A stretch of DNA of 64,000 nucleotides from Oceanibaculum indicum P24 (lineage in GTDB: Bacteria > Pseudomonadota > Alphaproteobacteria > Oceanibaculales > Oceanibaculaceae), in assembly GCF_000299935.1 (NCBI RefSeq), contig NZ_AMRL01000004.1, positions 1-64,000 on the forward strand. The letters run 5' to 3'. The notes beneath the pieces are model-generated. The model worked only from the letters and a program-made list of their open reading frames with translations. It made no database searches and had not been told where the DNA came from. The translations under genes and the position numbers were made by a program. Positions 685 to 62,672 of the stretch are shown here, piece after piece. How positions within the stretch are numbered: position 1 is the stretch's first letter; every line of letters begins with the position of its first letter.

Positions 685-3487
685 CACGCCCCTCCGATTC
701 CGTCGCTGCCTCCCCTTCAGCAGGGTCGCCCTCGACGATGTCGGCAGCTTCCCCGATCTCGTCGCCGATCTCGTCCTCTGCGGCGCCGCTTTCCTCGGCC
801 ATCCAGGCGACGGAGACGATATGCTCATCCTCGGCGACCCGGAACAGGGTGACGCCCTGCGTCCGTCGGCCGGCGATGCGGATATCATGTACCGGACAGC
901 GGATAAGCTGGCCGCCATCGGTCACCAGAACGATCTGGTCGGTCTGCGCCACCGGGAAGGAGGCCGCCAGCTTACCGTTGCGCTCATTCAGCTCCATATT
1001 GGCGATGCCCTGCCCGCCGCGGCCGGTGACCCGGTACTCATAGGCGGAAGTGCGCTTGCCAAAGCCCTTCTCGCTGACGGTAAGGATGAATTCCTCGCGC
1101 GAGGCCAGTTCCTCGAAGCGGGTATCGTCGAGAGCGCCGCCATTGCCGGCCCCCTCCTCGGCATCCAGCACGACGGCCTCCTCGGCGCCGTCATCGCCAT
1201 TCTGGCGCCGCAGCGCGGCCGCCCGGCGCAGATAGGCGACCCGCTCGTCCGCCGTGGCCTCGACATGGTCGATGATCGACAGCGAGATGACCTGATCGTC
1301 GCCCTGCAACCTGATGCCGCGCACGCCCATCGAATCGCGGCCCTTGAACTCGCGCACATCCGTCACGGCGAAGCGGATACACTGGCCGTTACGGGTGGAG
1401 AGCAGCACATCCTGCTCCGTCGAGCAGGGCATCACGCCGACCAGATGCTCGCCCTCATCCAACTTCATGGCGATCTTGCCGTTCGACTTGATGTTGGTGA
1501 AGTCGGACAGCGAATTGCGCCGCACCGTGCCCGCCGAGGTGGCGAACATGACATGCAGCCCGCCCCAGCTTTCCTCGTCGGCCGGCATCGGCATGATGGT
1601 GGAGATGCCCTCGCCCGCCTGCACCGGCAGCATGTTCACGATCGGCTTGCCCCGGCCCTGCGGCGTCGCCAGCGGCAGCTGCCACACCTTCATGCGGTAA
1701 ACCATGCCGCGCGAGGTGAAGAAGAGCAGCGGCGTATGCGTATTGGCGACGAAAACGCGCGAGACGAAATCCTCGTCGCGGGTCGTCATGCCGGCGCGGC
1801 CCTTGCCGCCGCGCTTCTGCGCCCGGTAGGTCGAGAGCGGCACGCGCTTCACATAGCCGAGACGGCTGACCGTCACCACCATGTCCTCGCGCTGGATCAG
1901 ATCCTCGATATCCTGGTCCAGTTCGCCTTCTTCCAGCGCGGTGCGGCGCGGCGTGGCGAACTGTTCCTTGATGCGCACCAGCTCCTCGCGCAGCACGCTC
2001 ATCAGCTTCTCGCGGGAGCCCAGGATCGCCAGATATTCTTCGATTTTCCCAGCGATTTCCTGGGTTTCCTCGACCAGCTTCTCGCGTTCCATGCCGGTCA
2101 GGCGCTGCAGGCGCAGCTCCAGGATGGCGCGGGCCTGTGCTTCCGACAGCCGGTACTTGCCATCGACCACGGCGCGGCCCGGCTCGTCGATCAGGGCGAT
2201 ATAGGGCGCGACATCGGTCGCCGGCCAGTCCTTGCCCATCAGCGCGGCGCGCGCCTCTGCGGCATCGCGGGACGCGCGGATCAACTCGATGACCGGATCG
2301 AGATTCTGGATCGCCACCAGCAGGCCGACCAGGATATGGGCGCGGTCACGGGCCTTGCCCAGCTCATAGACCGTGCGCTTGGTGATGACCTCCTCGCGGA
2401 ACTGCAGGAACGCCTCGATGACCTGCTTCAGGGTCATCATTTCCGGCCGGCCGCCATTCAGCGCCAGCGCATTCACGCCAAAGGAGGTCTGCAGCGGCGT
2501 ATAGCGGTACAGCTGGTTCAGCACCACATCCGCCTGGGCGTCGCGCTTGATCTCCACGACGACGCGCACGCCGTCGCGGTCGCTCTCGTCGCGGATGTCC
2601 GAGATGCCTTCGACGATCTTGGCGTTCACCACCTCGGCGATGCGCTCGATCAGGCGCGCCTTGTTCACCTGGTAGGGGATCTCGCTGATGACCAGCGCCT
2701 CGCGGTCCTTGCGGATTTCCTCGACCGCCACGCGGCCGCGCATGACGACCGACCCGCGCCCGGTGCTGTAGGCCTCGTGGATGCCGCGCTTGCCCATGAT
2801 GATGCCGCCGGTCGGGAAATCCGGCCCCGGCACGTGCTGCATCAGCCCTTCCATGCTGATGGAGGGGTCGTCCACATAGGCGCAGCAGGCGTCGATCACC
2901 TCGCCCAGATTGTGCGGCGGAATGTTGGTCGCCATGCCGACGGCGATACCGCCGGCGCCATTCACCAGCAGGTTGGGATATTCCGCCGGCAGGACGGCGG
3001 GTTCCTCGACCGATTCGTCGTAGTTGGCGACGAACTTCACGGTCTCCTTATCGATATCGCGCAGCAGCGCCTCGGCCGCCTTGGCCAGCCGCGCCTCGGT
3101 ATAGCGCATGGCCGCCGGCGGATCGCCGTCCATCGAGCCGAAATTGCCCTGCCCATCGATCAGCGGCAGGCGCATGGAGAAGTCCTGCGCCATGCGCACC
3201 ATCGCATCATAGATGGCGCTGTCGCCGTGCGGATGGTATTTACCCATGACATCGCCGACGATGCGGGCCGACTTGCGGTAGGGCTTCGTCCAGTCGTAGC
3301 CGCCATCCTTCATCGCGTAGAGAATACGGCGATGCACGGGCTTCAGCCCGTCGCGCACGTCAGGAAGGGCGCGCGCAACGATTACGCTCATGGCGTAATC
3401 AAGGTAGGAGCGGCGCATCTCCTCTTCGATGGAGACGGGCTTTACATCGAAGCCGGGAGGCGTTCCGGGAGGCGTCGTCGTGGACAA
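677..3487 (-). CDS. gyrA: DNA gyrase subunit A
   Basis: 936-residue breakage-reunion subunit of DNA gyrase, which introduces negative supercoils together with GyrB. The catalytic tyrosine is Tyr129 in [10 protein letters not shown]. The quinolone-determining region [10 protein letters not shown] has Ser90 and Asp94 at the positions equivalent to E. coli Ser83 and Asp87, so it looks like the sensitive type. The GyrA-box is present as QKRGGKG, slightly different from QRRGGKG. The C-terminal beta-pinwheel contains an acidic insertion (around [20 protein letters not shown]), and the protein ends in an acidic tail. Translation appears to start at TTG 3487: an in-frame TAA lies seven codons upstream, no ATG or GTG fits the conserved N-terminus, and a GGAAAG stretch lies about 10 bases before it. 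The coding end overlaps coaD by eight bases. Confidence 0.98.
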
Positions 3488-21587: not shown

Positions 21588-22373
21588 TCAGTGATCCAGG
21601 ATCTGGCTCAGGAACAGCTTGGTGCGGTCGGACTTCGGGTTGGTGAAGAATTCCGACGGCACGTTCTGCTCCACGATCTCGCCCTGGTCCATGAAGATGA
21701 TGCGGTCGGCCACCTTGTTGGCGAAGCCCATCTCATGCGTGACCACCAGCATGGTCATGCCGGTCTCGGCCAGGCCGACCATCACATCCAGCACTTCCTT
21801 GATCATCTCCGGGTCGAGGGCCGAGGTCGGCTCGTCGAACAGCATGATCGACGGGTTCATGCACAGCGAGCGGGCAATCGCCACGCGCTGCTGCTGGCCG
21901 CCCGACAGCTGTCCCGGATATTTGTCCGCCTGCTCGGGAATCTTCACCCGGGTCAGGTATTGCATGGCGATTTCCTCGGCATCGCGCTTGGGTGTCTTCT
22001 TCACCCAGATCGGGGCCAGGGTGCAGTTCTCAAGCACGGTAAGATGCGGAAACAGGTTGAAGCTCTGGAACACCATGCCGACATCGCCGCGGATCGCGTC
22101 GATGTTCTTCAAATTGCTGTCCAGCGTCACGCCATTGACCAGGATGTCACCCTTCTGGTGTTCCTCCAGGCGGTTGATGCAGCGGATCAGGGTGGACTTG
22201 CCCGACCCTGACGGCCCGCAGATGACGATGCGTTCGCCCTTATAGACCGAGAGGTTGATGTCCTTCAGGACGTGGAACTCGCCATACCATTTGTTCACAT
22301 TGGCGAGTTCGATCACGACCTCGTTCTGGATCTGCGACTTGATGTGGGATTCGCTGACCGCTTCGACGCTCAT
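21588..22373 (-). CDS. aapP: General L-amino-acid ABC transporter, ATPase
   Basis: 261-residue ATPase of the polar-amino-acid uptake family. Walker A is GPSGSGKST, the Q loop is [11 protein letters not shown], the ABC signature is [12 protein letters not shown], Walker B is [12 protein letters not shown] and the H loop is VVTHEMGF. It energises the AapQ-AapM channel. It is the last gene of aapJQMP, 18 bases after aapM. The order J-Q-M-P and the two unusually large permeases identify the Aap/Bztlike general amino-acid permease rather than a simple glutamine transporter. Confidence 0.95.
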
Positions 22374-22391
22374 GGATGAGACTCCTAATTT

Positions 22392-23741
22392 CTAGCGCCG
22401 CGCCTGACCGGCGCCGAGGGTACGTTCCAGGCGCTGGCTGTATCGCGACATCGCATAGCAGAAGATGAAGAAGACGAAGGCCCCGAATACGAAGGGTTCG
22501 GTGTGCAGCCCGTTCCATCGCGGGTTCTGGCTCACCGCCTTCAGCATCAGCAGCAGGTCGTAGAGGCCGATGATGGAGACCAGCGTGGTGTCCTTGAACA
22601 GGCCGATGAAATTGCTGACGATATTGGGAATCATCAGCTTCAGCGCCTGCGGCATCACCACCAGCCCCATCATCTTCCAGTAGCTGAGGCCCATCGACTG
22701 GGCCGCCTCATACTGGCCGCGGGGAATTGCCTGCAACCCGCCGCGCACGATTTCCGCCATATAGGCGGCCGCGAACAGGCAGACCGCGATGATCACCTGG
22801 ATCAGCTTGTTCAGCACCATCGTCTCGGGCAGGAACAGCGGCATCATGGTGACCGCCATGAACAGGATGGTGATCAGCGGCACCGACCGGAACAGTTCGA
22901 TAAAGACGATCGACGCCGTGCGGATGACCGGCATCTTCGAGCGCCGCCCCAGCGCCAGCACCACACCCGCCGGCAGCGCCGTGGTGATGGCAATGCCGGA
23001 GATCACCAGCGTCAGGAACAGGCCACCCCAGTTGTTGGTCGGGATATCCCGCAGTTCCCAGGGCATCTGGATCGCAAACACGATGACCAGCGCGACCAGG
23101 AAGGCCCCGACCAGGATATTGCGCTGTACCCTGGGATCGGTATCGTCGCCCTTCCCCGCCAGACTCAGGATTGTCGCTGGCAGCGACCGGCCGGTGAGCA
23201 GGCAGCAGGCGACATGCAGCCAGATCGACAGGAAGGTGACGATGGCCGCCGACAGCATGAACTGCACGAAGAGGCCCTTGTCCCCGCCGGCGAACATATA
23301 GCCGGCGAAGAACGGGAAGATCAGGACGGCCGACAGGCCGATGCCGATCTTGCCGGTGACGCGCGGAATCCAGCAGGGCGCCATCCAGACCGCCAGCATG
23401 ACGAAGCTGAAATTCACGCGCCATTGCTCGGCATAGGGATAACGGCCGTAGATGAAGGCGTTGAACCAGTGGAACACACCGGCCCAGCACGCCCCTTCCG
23501 GGCTGGTATCAAGGCACTGGCGGCGGCTGTCGGCCACGAACACGGCCTTGGCGATCCCCCAGTCATAGAGGTGATAGAGGGTAAAGAAGATCAGCCACAG
23601 CGCCACCGCCGTCAGCAGCGTGTTGTACCAGGTGCTGAACAGGTTGCGGCGCAGCCAGCCCACCGGCCCCACCGTATTGGGCGGCGGCGGCAGGCTGGGT
23701 TTCGGACGGAACGTCACTTCGGTGGCATCGGTGTTCGCCAT
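22392..23741 (-). CDS. aapM: General L-amino-acid ABC transporter, permease AapM
   Basis: 449-residue inner-membrane permease. The first part has several hydrophobic segments not found in short HisMQ-type permeases. The C-terminal third carries the usual permease core, with the EAA-type motif AAYMAEIVRGGLQAIPRGQYEAA split by helices. It pairs with AapQ to form the channel. The start ATG at 23741 lies only 3 bases after the aapQ stop. The length (over 400 residues) is characteristic of the Aap family. Confidence 0.94.
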   Translation of the reverse strand: MANTDATEVTFRPKPSLPPPPNTVGPVGWLRRNLFSTWYNTLLTAVALWLIFFTLYHLYDWGIAKAVFVADSRRQCLDTSPEGACWAGVFHWFNAFIYGRYPYAEQWRVNFSFVMLAVWMAPCWIPRVTGKIGIGLSAVLIFPFFAGYMFAGGDKGLFVQFMLSAAIVTFLSIWLHVACCLLTGRSLPATILSLAGKGDDTDPRVQRNILVGAFLVALVIVFAIQMPWELRDIPTNNWGGLFLTLVISGIAITTALPAGVVLALGRRSKMPVIRTASIVFIELFRSVPLITILFMAVTMMPLFLPETMVLNKLIQVIIAVCLFAAAYMAEIVRGGLQAIPRGQYEAAQSMGLSYWKMMGLVVMPQALKLMIPNIVSNFIGLFKDTTLVSIIGLYDLLLMLKAVSQNPRWNGLHTEPFVFGAFVFFIFCYAMSRYSQRLERTLGAGQARR

Positions 23742-23744
23742 CGC

Positions 23745-24941
23745 TCAACGCTCCTTCAGCTGCACAGACTTGTTATAGACGTTCAGCGCCGCCGAAATGG
23801 TCAGGCTGACCGTCATGTAGAACAGCATGACCATCGCCACGATCTCGATGGCATAGCCCGACTGGTTCAGCGAGGTCTGCATGAAGACCGACACCAGATC
23901 GGGGAAGCCGATGGCGACAGCCAGCGAGGAATTCTTCACCACATTCATCCACACGCTGATGAGCGGCGGAACGATGGCGCGCATGGCCTGCGGGATCACG
24001 ATCAGCCGGACCGTCAGGCCGGGCCGCAATCCAAGCGAATAGGAGGCTTCGGTCTGCCCGTGGCTGACCGACTGGATGCCGGCGCGCACATTTTCCGCGA
24101 TGAAGGCGGAATGATAGACCACGAGCGCGATCAGCAGCGAGCAGAAGGCCGGCGGAACGCTTGTACCCCCCGTGAAATTGAAGCCCTGCAGCACCGGATA
24201 ATCGAAGCTGAGCGGCGCCCCGGTGACAATGAACACAAGCAGCGGCAGCACGATAATCATGCCCAGTGACGGCCACAGCACCGGAATACGCTGCCCGGTG
24301 GAGGCCTGCTTGCGGTTGGAATGGTGCGCCAGCGCAATGGTGGCGACGATAGCACCCAGCAGCGCCAGGACCGTGACCCAGAACAGGTCGCCCGGCAGCG
24401 GCGAGGGCATGTAGAAACCGCGGTTGTTCAGCTCGAACACCCCGAAGATGTTCAGGCTGTCGCGGGGCCTGGGAAGGATCGAGAAAACCGCGAGATACCA
24501 GAACAGGATCTGCAGCAGCAGCGGCGTGTTGCGCAGGATTTCAACGTACCAGGCCGCCAGCTTGGCGATCAGCCAGTTGCTGGAAAGCCTGAGAATGCCG
24601 ACCACGAAGCCCAGTATCGTCGTAAAGAAGATCGCGACGACCGAGACGATCAGCGTATTCGTGATGCCGACGAGATAGACCCGCCCGTAGGTATCCGACG
24701 GTTCATAGGGAATGATGTGCCAGGCAATCGCGAACCCGGCGGTATTGCCGAGGAAGTCGAAGCCCGAACTCATGCCCCGTGTCGCGAGATTGTGCGAGGT
24801 GGTGGTGAAGAGGAACCACGCACACCACACGATCAGCGCGAAAGCAACGATCTGATAGAAGACGGAGCGGTACCGTTCGTCATTCACCATCAAGGCAAAC
24901 GACGTCTCCCGCGCCGGCGAGCCTTTTTCCAGCATCGCCAT
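23745..24941 (-). CDS. aapQ: General L-amino-acid ABC transporter, permease AapQ
   Basis: 398-residue inner-membrane permease with about eight hydrophobic segments. The C-terminal core has the EAA-type region AFIAENVRAGIQSVSHGQTEA. The N-terminal half has a large periplasmic loop between the first helix (ALIVWCAWFLF) and the next, as in other Aap/Bzt permeases. ATG 24941 is preferred over a TTG five codons upstream because GGAG lies 7 bases before it. A strong hairpin separates this gene from aapJ. Confidence 0.94.
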   Translation of the reverse strand: MAMLEKGSPARETSFALMVNDERYRSVFYQIVAFALIVWCAWFLFTTTSHNLATRGMSSGFDFLGNTAGFAIAWHIIPYEPSDTYGRVYLVGITNTLIVSVVAIFFTTILGFVVGILRLSSNWLIAKLAAWYVEILRNTPLLLQILFWYLAVFSILPRPRDSLNIFGVFELNNRGFYMPSPLPGDLFWVTVLALLGAIVATIALAHHSNRKQASTGQRIPVLWPSLGMIIVLPLLVFIVTGAPLSFDYPVLQGFNFTGGTSVPPAFCSLLIALVVYHSAFIAENVRAGIQSVSHGQTEASYSLGLRPGLTVRLIVIPQAMRAIVPPLISVWMNVVKNSSLAVAIGFPDLVSVFMQTSLNQSGYAIEIVAMVMLFYMTVSLTISAALNVYNKSVQLKER

Positions 24942-24969
24942 CCCAGTACTCCGCAAAAATGAACGGTCT

Positions 24970-25021: not shown

Positions 25022-26062
25022 TTACCGGAACGGCGGGGCGTACATCAGGCCGCCCTCAGTCCACAGCGCATTCTGCGACCCGGCACGCGGGATGCCAATG
25101 GCACCCGGGCCTTCGCCCATGTACTTCTCGTACACTTCGCCGTAATTGCCGACATGCTTGATGATGTTGTAGGCCCAGTCCTGGCTGAGACCGAGGCCCT
25201 TGCCAAGCTCACCCTCGACGCCCAGGAAGCGCGCGACTTCCGGGTTCGGCGGGCTGGCCTTCATCTGATCGACATTCTTCGAGTTCACGCCGTATTCCTC
25301 GGCGGCGATCAGCGCGAAGACCGACCAGCGGACGATCTGGAACCACTGGTCATCACCATTACGCACGGCCGGGCCAAGCGGTTCCTTGGAGATGGTCTCC
25401 GGCAGAATCACGTGGTCGTTCTGGTTCGCGAACTTGGCACGCGAGGAGGCCAGACCGGACTTGTCGTTGGTGATCGCATCGCAACCACCCTGGGAGTAGG
25501 TCTGGTCACGCACGTTGTTGTCCTCGAACACGATCGGCTTGAGGTCCAGGCCGAGCGTCCGGCTGTAGTCCGTCAGGTTCAGCTCCGTCGTGGTGCCGGT
25601 CAGCACGCACACGGTGGCGCCCTTCAGCTCCTTCGCGCTCTTCAGCCCGAGCGACTTCGGAACCATGAAGCCCTGACCGTCATAGAAGTTGATGCCCGCG
25701 AACTTCAGGCCCAGCTGCGTGTCGCGGAAAATCGTCCAGGTCGCGGTGCGCGACAGCATGTCCGACTCGCCATTGGCCAGCGCGGTGAAACGCACGGCGC
25801 TGGTCACCGACTGGAATTCGACCTTGCTGGGGTCGCCGAAGATTGCGGTCGCCACGGCGCGGCAGATCGACACGTCGCTGCCGGACCAGTTGCCGTTCTG
25901 ATCGAGCACATAGAAGCCCGGAGACGGAATACCGACCTGACAACGCAGATGACCGCGCTGCTTGACCTGTTCGAGAGTGCTCTGGGCCGCCGCGGTACCG
26001 GCCGTGACGGCGAAACCCGCCAGAAGACCGAGTCCGAGACCCAAAAGGCTCAGCTTTTTCAT
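25022..26062 (-). CDS. aapJ: General L-amino-acid ABC transporter, periplasmic binding protein
   Basis: 346-residue periplasmic solute-binding protein of family 3. A Sec signal (KKLSLLGLGLGLLAGFAVTAG) ends near AAA-QS, residue 26. The mature N-terminus is TLEQVKQRGHLRCQVGIPSPG, followed by the family segment GSDVSICRAVATAIFGD and the ligand-pocket region around SRTATWT. In rhizobia this protein binds a broad range of L-amino acids. ATG 26062 starts the signal peptide; an upstream extension to 26200 is ruled out by the lack of a signal. It is the first gene of the operon and has a sigma-54-type promoter upstream. Confidence 0.95.
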   Translation of the reverse strand: MKKLSLLGLGLGLLAGFAVTAGTAAAQSTLEQVKQRGHLRCQVGIPSPGFYVLDQNGNWSGSDVSICRAVATAIFGDPSKVEFQSVTSAVRFTALANGESDMLSRTATWTIFRDTQLGLKFAGINFYDGQGFMVPKSLGLKSAKELKGATVCVLTGTTTELNLTDYSRTLGLDLKPIVFEDNNVRDQTYSQGGCDAITNDKSGLASSRAKFANQNDHVILPETISKEPLGPAVRNGDDQWFQIVRWSVFALIAAEEYGVNSKNVDQMKASPPNPEVARFLGVEGELGKGLGLSQDWAYNIIKHVGNYGEVYEKYMGEGPGAIGIPRAGSQNALWTEGGLMYAPPFR

Positions 26063-26126
26063 CCTGAAACCACCCCTGTTAATTATGGTTTGTCGTACAG
26101 CCCGCAAAGGCCGGTCTGGTATGCGT

Positions 26127-26143
26127 AGCAAACAGCGCGCCAA
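26127..26143 (-). promoter_or_regulatory. Sigma-54 (-24/-12) promoter of aapJQMP
   Basis: On the minus strand this reads TTGGCGCGCTGTTTGCT. Against the consensus YTGGCACG-N4-TTGCW only the A is changed to G; the invariant GG and GC are 10 bases apart. Transcription would begin near 26116, giving a leader of about 54 bases before the aapJ ATG. Sigma-54 promoters need an enhancer-binding activator such as NtrC, and an NtrC-like site lies upstream. Confidence 0.62.
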
Positions 26144-26193
26144 ACCGATCTCCCCGGTATCGAACAACTTTTTGGCTCTTGTTTCGGCCTTGT

Positions 26194-26210
26194 TGCCCAA
26201 ATTCCGGTCA
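26194..26210. promoter_or_regulatory. NtrC-like binding site upstream of aapJ
   Basis: The 17 bases TGCCCAAATTCCGGTCA match 13 of 17 positions of the perfect palindrome found in front of dusB (62656-62672), which itself fits the TGC-N11-GCA geometry of NtrC sites. Its centre is about 86 bases upstream of the start site predicted from the sigma-54 promoter, a usual enhancer distance. A further TGCCCAAA half-site occurs at 26307-26314. Confidence 0.45.
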
Positions 26211-26498
26211 ACTGCCGAAGTTCTAGGCCCTCGTTATTCGATGGCTGGTATTCCACCACGCGATGGCAAGTTTTGGCAAGCATTCGACGCAAATGGGCAA
26301 ACTCACTGCCCAAAGCCCCCTGCGAACGGCATCCGGAGCAGCCGGCTGAACAGCCGTGACACAGGCATCCGGCGGCGGGGCCAGTAGCGGGGGTTGACAC
26401 CGCTTTGCAGCCGTTCCTAGCTATCGCCCTAGCTGACGGTCGGATATCAACGATCCGTTTTCTCACGATCTTCGCGCAGGCCATGGGAGCCGACAAAA

Positions 26499-27680
26499 AT
26501 GAAAAAGACGATGACCAAGGACACCATGCTGGCCCATCTGGGGCGGAAGGTCGCGACCGAGAACCGGATCATCAACACACCGGTCTTTCACGCCTCGACG
26601 ATCACCCACAAGACCCTGGAGTCCTGGGAGAATCGCAACCGCGATCTCTATAAGGACATGGCCTATGGGCGCTATGGCACGCCGACCAGCTTCGCCCTGC
26701 AGGAGGCGATGGCGGAGATCGAGGGCGGCGACCGCGCCCTGCTCTACCCGTCCGGCATGGCGGCGATTGCCGCGTCAATCCTGGCCTTCGTGAATGCCGG
26801 CGACCACATCCTGGTCTGCGACGTGGTCTATGCCCCGACCCGCAAATATTGCGATGGCGTGCTGACCAAGCTGGGCGTGGAGACGACCTATTTCGCGCCT
26901 GGCATCGGTGCCGGTATCGCGGAACTGATCCGCCCGAACACCAAGCTGGTCTATGTCGAATCGCCGGGCACCCACACTTTCGAGATCCAGGACATCCCGG
27001 CCATCGCGGAAGCCGCCCACAAGGCCGGCTGCGTGGTGCTGCACGACAATACCTGGGCCACACCGCTCTATTTCGACAGTTTCAACAAGGGCGTGGACGT
27101 CTCGATCCATGCCGCCACGAAGTATGTCGTCGGCCATTCCGACGCCATGCTGGGCATCGTGGTCACCAAGAACGAGCATTTCGCACCGCTGTCCGCAGTG
27201 ACCAGCGCGATGGGCTATTGCGTGGCGCCGGACGATGCCTATCTGGGGCTGCGCGGCCTGCGCACCATGTCGGTGCGGCTGAAGCAGCACCACAAGAACG
27301 GGCTGGCGGTCGCTGAATGGCTGGAAAAGCGCCCGGAAGTGTCCCGCGTGCTGCACCCTGCCCTGCCCGGCAATCCGCATCATGCGCTGTGGAAGCGCGA
27401 CTTCACCGGTGCCTCCGGCCTGTTCGGCGTGGTGCTGAAGGATGTGCCGAAGCCGGCGCTGGCGGCGATGATCGAGGGTCTGGAGCTGTTCTCCATCGGT
27501 GCCAGCTGGGGCGGTTACGAGAGCCTTGTGACCACCTGCTATCCGCCGCGCACCGTGGAGGCGTGGAACCCGGAAGGCCCGCTGCTGCGCCTGCATATCG
27601 GCCTAGAGGACCCCGCCGATATCATCGCCGACCTTGAGGCCGGCTTCGAGCGCATGAACAAGCTTAAGGCAGCCGCATGA
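26499..27680 (+). CDS. metC: Cystathionine beta-lyase (PLP-dependent)
   Basis: 393-residue enzyme of the Cys/Met-metabolism PLP family. It splits cystathionine to homocysteine, pyruvate and ammonia in methionine synthesis. The PLP lysine is Lys208 in [14 protein letters not shown]. Other family segments are [23 protein letters not shown] and the aspartate in [12 protein letters not shown]. The sequence follows the MetC branch rather than cystathionine gamma-synthase, but a wider C-S lyase activity is possible. The ATG at 26499 has GGGAG upstream; an ATG four codons later is also plausible. The stop overlaps the hisI start (ATGA). Confidence 0.92.
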
Positions 27681-35174: not shown

Positions 35175-35480
35175 TCAGTGCGTCCAGGCCTGCATGCGGT
35201 TGGTGGCGAAATTGTCGGCATAGGCCTTCGGCTTGATGGTCCGGGCCTTGGGCTCCTCGACGACGAACTGCAGCCCATGCTTCTGGGCGTAGGCGATGGC
35301 CTCTTCCTTCGTCGCGAAGCGCAGGCGCACCTGGTTCATCGTATCGCCGGAGGAGACCCAGCCCATCAGCGGCTCTGGCCGGCGCGGCGTCACCGGCGCA
35401 TAATCCAGAACCCAGCGGTGCGTTCCCGCACGGCCCGACTGCATGGCGGTCTTGCTCGGCTGATAGATGCGCGCCAACAT
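35175..35480 (-). CDS. NADH dehydrogenase complex I accessory subunit, NDUFS4-like (ETC_C1 family)
   Basis: 101-residue protein matching the bacterial form of the complex I subunit NDUFS4 (18 kDa). Diagnostic segments are ARIYQPSKTAMQSG, WVLDYAP and the middle GWVSSGDTMNQVRLRF with the following EEAIAYAQKHG. In alphaproteobacteria and mitochondria this subunit sits on the peripheral arm near the NADH-oxidising module. It is encoded apart from the nuo operon, here between tRNA-Arg and tRNA-Pro on the same strand, which is usual for this gene in the class. Confidence 0.88.
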   Translation of the reverse strand: MLARIYQPSKTAMQSGRAGTHRWVLDYAPVTPRRPEPLMGWVSSGDTMNQVRLRFATKEEAIAYAQKHGLQFVVEEPKARTIKPKAYADNFATNRMQAWTH

Positions 35481-58994: not shown

Positions 58995-60454
<1,460 letters not shown>

Positions 60455-60455
<1 letters not shown>

Positions 60456-61621
60456 CACTCAGCCTCCACCGGCAGCAGCCGGGCGACCGGATCGCTGCCC
60501 ATCTCTTCCGGCGCCATCGGCAGCATGACGCGGAAGACGGTGCGCTTCGGCTGGCTGTCCACCTCGATGATGCCGCCATGATCGCCGACGATCTTGGCGA
60601 CCAGCGCCAGCCCAAGGCCGCTGCCATTCTGCTTGGTGGTGACGAACGGGTCGAACAGGTTCTGCCGCAGATCGTCAGGGATGCCGGGCCCGTTATCGGT
60701 GACGCTGATCACCAGCGGCAGGTCGAAGCTGCTGCGCGAGCCGGGCACCGCCAGCCTTATGCCATGCTTGTAGGCCGTGCTCAGGGTGATCTCGCCGCCC
60801 TCCTCCGGCAGTGCCTCCGAAGCGTTCTTCACAAGGTTCAGGAAAATCTGGATCAGCAGGTCGCGATTGCCGAGCACGGCCGGCAGCGATGGATCATACT
60901 GCTCGACAAAGCGGTGCTGCCGGGCAAAGCCGGTCTTGGCGACCTTGCGCACATGATCCAGCACGAGATGGATATTCACCGGACCGCGCGGCATCGGCCG
61001 CTGGTCGGAGAACACCTCCATCCGGTCGACCAGCGCGCAGATACGGTCGGTCTCGTCGCGGATCAACGTCGTCAGCTCCTGGTCGCCGGGGTCCTGCACA
61101 CTCTGCTCCAGCAGCTGTGCCGCCCCCCTGATGCCGGAGAGCGGGTTCTTCACCTCATGCGCCAGCATCGCTGCCATCGCGGTGACGGAGCGCGCCGCGC
61201 CACGGAAGGTCAGCTGCTGGTGGAACTGCAGCGCCACCGAACGTTCATGGATGCAGATCGCCACCTGCCCGTCGGAATCCGCGATCGGTGCGACCTCGAT
61301 CGTCACGTCGCGCGTGCCGATGCGCGGCGTCTCCAGCGTCACGCCATGGTCCGACATGCTGTTGCCATGCGCCCGGACCTGCGACAGCAGGGAGAAGAGC
61401 GGGCTGTCGTCCGGGATGAAATCGGCAAGCCGCTGATCGACCAGCTGGTTGGCACTGAGGCGGAAGAACTGCTCGGTCGCGTCGTTCACATAGACGATCT
61501 GGTTGTCCGCATCGACCACCAGCACCGGGCTGGCCAGCGCCAGCAGGATCGCCGATTCCTCGACGCGCGCCGGGCGCCGTCCCCGGCCCAGCAGCTTCAG
61601 CGGCGTGCTTATCTTCGCCAT
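60455..61621 (-). CDS. ntrB: Nitrogen sensor histidine kinase NtrB
   Basis: 388-residue soluble kinase/phosphatase of NtrC. PAS domain (about 23-130), HisKA with His155 in [20 protein letters not shown], and an ATPase domain with [18 protein letters not shown] and GSGLGLALV. It is controlled by PII proteins. ATG 61621 shares a base with the dusB stop (TGATG); the upstream frame to 61759 runs inside dusB and is not used. Confidence 0.97.
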
Positions 61622-62634
61622 CAGGCGGCCTCCTGCAGGGATTTGCCCGCCGATCCGTCGAGGGCGGCAGTGAAGTAATGCTCCATGGCGTCCCGTACAG
61701 CATCCGGGTCCGTGGTGTTGTTGACCAGCTGGCGGAAGGCCGCGGAACCGGGCAGGCACCGGCTGTACCAGCCAATATGCTTGCGCGCGATGCGGCAGCC
61801 GAGCTGCGGCCCGTAATGGCGCTGCATCGCCTCCCAGTGATCCCTGACCGTCTCCAGGATGACCGCCAGCGGCGGGTCCGGCAGCTTCTCCCCGGTGCGC
61901 AGATAGTGCCCCACCTGGGCTGGGAACCAGGGCCGGCCATAGCTGCCCCGGCCGATCATCACCGCATCAGCGCCAGACAGGCGCAGCGCCTCGGCCGCCT
62001 CTTCCTCCGTCGTCACGTCGCCATTCACGACGACTGGGATGGAAACCACCTGCTTCACCGCACGCACATAGGACCAGTCGGCCCGGCCGGTATAGAACTG
62101 GCAGCGGGTGCGGCCATGCACGGTGACCATGCGCACGCCGAGATCCTCGGCGATCCGGGCAAGCTGCGGCGCGTTACGGCTGCCATCGTCCCAGCCGGTG
62201 CGCATCTTCAGTGTGACCGGGATATCGACGGCCTTAACCGTCGCCTCGATCAGCGATGCGGCATGGTCGAGGTCGCGCATCAGGGCGGAGCCGGCCTGTT
62301 GCCCGCCCGTTACCTTCTTCACCGGGCAGCCCATATTGATGTCGATGATGGCCGCGCCCCGGCCCGCATTCAGCTTCGCCGCCTCGGCCATCAGCGCAGG
62401 CTCGCAGCCTGCCAGCTGGACCGACAGCGGATAGTCCGCGCTGTAATCCTCCGACATTTTGCGGATTTCCTTGCGCGCCTGCTGCACCATGGCGGCGCTG
62501 GCAATCATCTCGGAAACCACGAGCCCGACGCCGAAGCGCCGGACAATGCGGCGGAACGGCTGATCGGTGACACCAGACATGGGCGCCAGGATCACCGGCG
62601 ACTCCAGTTTAATTGGCCCGATTGATACGCTCAT
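61621..62634 (-). CDS. dusB: tRNA-dihydrouridine synthase (NifR3/DusB)
   Basis: 337-residue flavin enzyme that reduces uridines in tRNA. The catalytic cysteine is in [13 protein letters not shown] near residue 100, and FMN contacts include [13 protein letters not shown] and the [10 protein letters not shown] loop. In alphaproteobacteria this gene (once named nifR3) heads the ntrBC operon, as here. A promoter and a 17-bp palindrome lie immediately upstream. The start ATG 62634 has only a weak ribosome site. Confidence 0.96.
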
Positions 62635-62655
62635 ATTTTAGGCATCTTCCTTTCG

Positions 62656-62672
62656 TGCCCAAACTTTGGGCA
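62656..62672. promoter_or_regulatory. Perfect 17-bp palindrome, probable NtrC autoregulatory site
   Basis: TGCCCAAA-C-TTTGGGCA is a perfect 8+1+8 inverted repeat. It has the same layout as NtrC sites (TGC at one end, GCA at the other, 11 bases between). Its position covers the start site predicted from the promoter at 62673-62701, where bound protein would block transcription. NtrC is known to repress its own dusB-ntrBC operon in several alphaproteobacteria. Another repressor using this palindrome cannot be excluded. Confidence 0.6.

Follow-up and report, generated by a model that had tools for sequence, protein, structure and literature searches.

A predicted sigma-54/NtrC control unit in front of the aapJQMP operon of Oceanibaculum indicum P24

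Background

The aapJQMP operon of Oceanibaculum indicum P24 is preceded by sequences that resemble a sigma-54 promoter and binding sites for NtrC, and the question raised by this locus is whether the operon is a target of the Ntr system. The window considered here is the whole stretch of DNA analysed, 64,000 nucleotides long (positions 1 to 64,000 of contig NZ_AMRL01000004.1), which belongs to an assembly of 3.95 Mb in 71 contigs.

The first-pass annotation of the window stated that nitrogen control of Aap transporters is known from rhizobia. This holds for responsiveness to nitrogen or Ntr, but the sign of the control differs: the aap genes of S. meliloti are up under nitrogen limitation, with PII control (PMC3596328), whereas the control of aap by Ntr in R. 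leguminosarum is negative according to the title of Walshaw 1997, as cited in PMC12411852 and PMC5874993. In Pseudomonas carnis, ntrB mutants show raised expression of aap genes (PMC12411852). The operon considered here encodes the same transporter as the S. meliloti and R. leguminosarum operons, which are reported to be nitrogen-responsive via PII/Ntr.

Matrices and survey

Candidate sites are scored with two matrices. The NtrC matrix is trained on sites upstream of P-II genes and dusB in this and related genomes, with the aapJ sites left out; it derives mainly from the P-II gene upstream regions because the dusB upstream regions of the relatives contain few recognisable palindromes. The sigma-54 matrix consists of approximate frequencies written from the published consensus and is applied with a cut-off of 12 bits. 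For the survey, 171 distinct upstream regions of aapJ were collected, from named genome contigs and from alphaproteobacterial genomes; its counts are slightly generous, since L096 and L232 are one region and L073 and L083 are close.

The aap locus

The operon consists of the following genes:

25022..26062, minus strand: aapJ, substrate-binding protein of the general L-amino-acid ABC transporter, with a match to an amino-acid binding-protein family
21588..24956, minus strand: aapQ, aapM and aapP, two permeases and an ATPase, open reading frames with matches to polar amino-acid permease/ATPase families

The last three genes lie downstream of aapJ on the same strand. The ATG of aapJ is at 26062 on the minus strand, and its open reading frame, start codon and N-terminus are all kept in relatives. 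The divergent neighbour, at 26499, is a cystathionine beta-lyase gene. An Rfam search of 25900-26600 gives no match.

The ribosome-binding region of aapJ (AACC...GGGTGGGTTTC, 26063-26096) is conserved at the same place in L012, L013, L015 and L121. This region could be a candidate sRNA target; aapJ is named in a paper on AbcR sRNAs (PMC8844928). For a possible hairpin around the ribosome-binding site, local folding is not better than that of shuffled sequences.

The -24/-12 element and the NtrC-like sites

Upstream of aapJ, the following elements are recognised:

26127..26143, minus strand: predicted sigma-54 (-24/-12) promoter TTGGCGCGCTGTTTGCT, one mismatch to the consensus, conserved in G001, G002, G380 and L021
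26194..26210, minus strand: main NtrC-like site TGACCGGAATTTGGGCA, 14.7 bits, 68 bases upstream of the -24 element, position kept in relatives
26201-26194: TTTGGGCA, part of the main NtrC-like site
26213..26229, minus strand: second NtrC-like site GGCCTAGAACTTCGGCA, weaker than the main site and 19 bases above it, 9.6 bits, rank 7 in the window

The first-pass annotation described the sequence at 26143-26127 as one change away from the -24/-12 consensus, and the sequence is exactly that: the single mismatch of TTGGCGCGCTGTTTGCT to TGGCACGN4TTGCW is A to G. Its GG (26141-26140, corresponding to -25/-24) and GC (26129-26128, -13/-12) are ten bases apart and oriented toward aapJ. The predicted sigma-54 start is 26116, which gives a leader of 54 nt to the ATG. 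The annotation also claimed a 13/17 match to the dusB palindrome about 86 bases upstream of this start. Both figures are reproduced: TGACCGGAATTTGGGCA matches TGCCCAAAGTTTGGGCA (62672-62656) at 13 of 17 positions, and its centre, 26202, lies 86 bases above 26116.

In the window, TTGGCGCGCTGTTTGCT is the sole sigma-54 match with at most one mismatch. The genome contains 35 such matches, compared with 38 for the reversed control pattern, so that a single match proves nothing on the genome-wide scale. From the genome density, about 0.001 matches are expected on the right strand in the 300 bases upstream of one chosen gene. Among the strong sigma-54 matches in the window, only that of aapJ has an NtrC-matrix site of at least 9 bits within 180 bases upstream.

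The palindrome, with up to three mismatches, occurs at 7 places in the 3.95 Mb (3 for the control) and at 2 in the window, where 0.17 are expected. The NtrC matrix ranks the two dusB sites first in the window (20.8 and 20.2 bits), followed by the aapJ site (14.7). Another site, at 35204-35220 (14.3 bits), is set aside; it lies between two tRNA genes, in an apparent small reverse-strand coding sequence. The second NtrC-like site of aapJ is identical in G001, and its counterpart in G002 is the strongest site there (CGCCTAAAACTTCGGCG, 13.8 bits).

The sigma-54 motif or the NtrC motif by itself is thus only moderately unusual and not decisive. Since the genome-wide count of sigma-54 matches is not above that of the control, significance is sought by comparison across genomes.

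Comparison across genomes

The first-pass reading depended on the conservation of both motifs upstream of aapJ in relatives, and it survives this comparison. The sister species (AapJ 95% identical) retains both motifs and all the other elements, and G380 and L021 (AapJ 69-71% identical) have both motifs at the same spacing. In G002 (AapJ 86% and AapQ 79% identical), the promoter is kept and the best NtrC-like site is shifted by about 20 bases, so as to coincide with the upper site; the 17-mer at the position of the main site is degenerate (7.5 bits), and the upper site is strong. In an alignment of five genomes, GGCA, the right half of the NtrC site, is present in all five, and TGGC..G....TTGC is conserved with a variable sigma-54 spacer, so that the conserved columns are the motif positions.

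Oceanibaculum pacificum (G003, L094 and L029) presents a different picture: the divergent gene is 81% identical, and AapJ and AapQ are 57% and 53% identical, respectively. The sigma-54/NtrC unit is absent from its aapJ upstream region, and it seems that in this species another aap operon, promoter included, has taken the place of the original one.

In the survey, sigma-54 sites of at least 12 bits are found on the sense strand of 34 of the 171 regions; the antisense strand yields 1 such region and shuffled sequences 1.25. Most of them lie 60-125 bases before the start codon, and those of a Hydrogenophaga-like group lie near 205. The positive regions come from Alphaproteobacteria, Marinomonas, Chromohalobacter and its relatives, and Hydrogenophaga and its relatives. 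A strong sigma-54 site is lacking upstream of 137 of the 171 aapJ homologues, including several close relatives (L013, L015 and L121).

The frequency of NtrC-like dyads (at least 8 of 10 positions) is 38% among sigma-54-positive regions, 5% among negative and 7% among shuffled ones; the dyads are enriched only upstream of strong sigma-54 sites. In particular, the interval 66-76 bases above the -24 element holds an NtrC site scoring 7 bits or more in 8 of the 15 sigma-54-positive alphaproteobacterial loci, compared with 0.12 expected; this interval was picked with the first cases already in view. When this genome and its sister are removed, 6 of 13 loci still show this spacing.

These results bear on the explanation that both motifs are chance matches, which draws on the equality of the genome-wide sigma-54 count and its control. 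It is contradicted by the enrichment among the 171 regions, the fixed spacing and the alignment, and we regard it as extremely improbable.

NtrC and the other sigma-54 promoters of the genome

The proposed activator and the palindrome that serves as the reference are as follows:

58995..60458, minus strand: ntrC, TIGR01818 at 721 bits, above the cut-off
62656..62672, no strand assigned: NtrC-type palindrome TGCCCAAAGTTTGGGCA, before dusB-ntrBC, zero mismatches, conserved in G001

The genome encodes rpoN, and the GAFTGA loop of NtrC is intact, at residue 221. The Caulobacter NtrC, which is likewise alphaproteobacterial, has nitrogen genes under its control and is a repressor of its own operon, but it lacks GAFTGA and acts at sigma-70 promoters (PMC10274813); the NtrC considered here differs in having GAFTGA.

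A second strong NtrC-like site, TGCCTAAAATATGAGCG (62628-62644, 20.2 bits), spans the start codon of dusB at a distance of 28 bases from the palindrome, and no good sigma-54 site is found upstream of dusB. This arrangement suggests that NtrC represses its own dusB-ntrBC operon.

The majority of the sigma-54 matches with at most one mismatch that were examined in the genome lie inside coding sequence. Others lie before glnK and before urtA-like, peptide-binding-protein, flgK and fliL genes, all but glnK being named by eye from translations rather than by family search. Above these sigma-54 sites, the maxima of the NtrC matrix are 15.4 bits for glnK, 14.6 for the urtA-like gene and 17.6 for the peptide-binding-protein gene, and at most 2.2 bits for flgK and fliL; note that two glnK sites are in the training set of the matrix, whereas the urtA-like and peptide-transporter sites are outside it. 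By this comparison, the predicted aapJ promoter groups with the nitrogen-type sigma-54 promoters of the genome and not with the flagellar ones. It shares with the glnK, urtA-like and peptide-transporter promoters a -24/-12 element with at most one mismatch and upstream NtrC-matrix sites. It differs from them in that the distance from the -24 element up to the start of the NtrC sites is 81-146 bases for them and 68 for aapJ, and in that aapJ has only one strong and one weak NtrC-like site.

The loci at G000:C15 76545 (urtA-like), G000:C1 386833 (peptide-binding protein) and G000:C4 141464 (glnK) are predicted to be further members of the nitrogen regulon. On G000:C13, the matches at 3354 and 14496 lie before the flgK- and fliL-like genes, and several further matches are found on the contig; these are probably a flagellar sigma-54 cluster, without NtrC-like sites.

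A further explanation is that the sigma-54 promoter is real and is driven by another enhancer-binding protein, the NtrC-like sites belonging to NtrX or to something else. The window does encode NtrX, and genomes of this kind have other activators as well. However, a matrix derived from P-II and dusB sites recognises the aapJ dyad, whose distance is fixed, NtrX as read lacks the GAFTGA loop, and the flagellar sigma-54 promoters of this genome have no dyad. We therefore consider another activator to be improbable, and retain NtrC as the probable one.

The distal element

A third type of element lies farther upstream:

26250..26280, minus strand: distal sigma-70-like element CTTGCC-N17-TGGTGGAAT, of the extended -10 type, whose start would be near 26243

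This element (26280-26250) and the second NtrC-like site (26229-26213) were both missed by the first-pass annotation. The pattern CTTG-N17-19-TG-N-TG-N-A(A)T is found in 8 of the 171 aapJ upstream regions, all from the closest AapJ relatives, compared with 0.34 expected; most of the matching loci were already known when the pattern was fixed, which makes this excess partly post hoc. The element is 198-243 bases away from aapJ and 127-219 bases away from the divergent gene, and because the former range is the tighter, it seems to go with aapJ. It lies about 220 bases above aapJ and is present in L013, L015 and L121, which have no sigma-54 site. Since its conservation extends to regions that lack the sigma-54 unit, this unit is probably not the sole aapJ promoter. 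Note that a standard sigma-70 scan does not call the element, which is a weak sigma-70 match.

The existence of this element raises another explanation, in which it is the main aapJ promoter, NtrC bound at 26229-26194 acts chiefly as a roadblock repressor, and the -24/-12 element is weak or vestigial. This would agree with the presence of the element, spaced to aapJ, in eight of the closest relatives, some of which have no sigma-54 site, and with the negative Ntr control of aap in R. leguminosarum given in the title that PMC12411852 and PMC5874993 cite. On the other hand, the -24/-12 positions are conserved while the spacer varies, sigma-54 sites are strongly enriched at aapJ, NtrC sites accompany sigma-54 sites and not their absence, and the distal element fits the sigma-70 consensus poorly. 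We judge this explanation unlikely, and the sigma-54 promoter remains the preferred reading.

In E. coli glnA, an upstream sigma-70 promoter (p1), NtrC sites and a downstream sigma-54 promoter (p2) are combined, and NtrC activates the downstream promoter and can block the upstream one. The aapJ upstream region has a distal sigma-70-like element, NtrC-like sites and a downstream sigma-54 promoter motif, which suggests a glnA-like two-promoter arrangement. Three differences are seen: the NtrC-like sites at aapJ lie just downstream of the distal promoter instead of overlapping it, the NtrC-like site is nearer to the sigma-54 promoter (centre -86), and the distal promoter is putative, being a weak consensus match. 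NtrC could block the distal promoter, because some 14-49 bases separate the expected start of this promoter from the NtrC-like sites downstream.

Proposed mechanism and significance

We conclude that aapJQMP is very likely a target of the Ntr system via the sigma-54 promoter and the NtrC sites. The original proposal of a complete sigma-54 control unit before the operon is supported by the conservation, the enrichment in the survey, the spacing, the genome yardsticks, and the presence of rpoN and a GAFTGA-containing NtrC.

Under nitrogen limitation, NtrB would phosphorylate NtrC. Judging from sequence and spacing, NtrC~P would bind 26210-26194, probably aided by the weaker site at 26229-26213. 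By the established mechanism of the family, the AAA+ domain of NtrC would then open the complex of RNA polymerase and sigma-54 at 26143-26127 through DNA looping, and transcription from near 26116 would lead to production of the amino-acid-scavenging transporter. The distal sigma-70-like promoter (26280-26250) probably supplies basal expression. It is possible, although we rate it somewhat below an even chance, that bound NtrC shuts the distal promoter while activating the sigma-54 promoter, as at E. coli glnA. Only tentatively do we extend this to a two-way NtrC switch at aap, in which a distal housekeeping promoter is closed and a sigma-54 promoter is opened, and of which one or the other half has been retained, lost or exchanged in different lineages. 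Such a switch, if true, would go some way toward explaining why Ntr control of aap is reported as negative in some bacteria and positive in others.

The predicted control is of a known kind, here in a new instance at aapJ; it would not surprise a specialist, and it is well supported, having been made firm by the cross-genome comparison. The prediction for the aapJ promoter has base-level precision and is cheaply testable. The uneven spread of the sigma-54 unit and the distal element offers a case of promoter turnover at one operon that can be compared across genomes. Aap provides general amino-acid uptake, and marine bacteria are often nitrogen-limited. The sigma-54/NtrC unit occurs upstream of aapJ in several lineages of Alphaproteobacteria, and gamma- and betaproteobacteria also have sigma-54 sites at this place, a distribution which suggests that amino-acid scavenging has repeatedly been wired into the nitrogen-starvation response.
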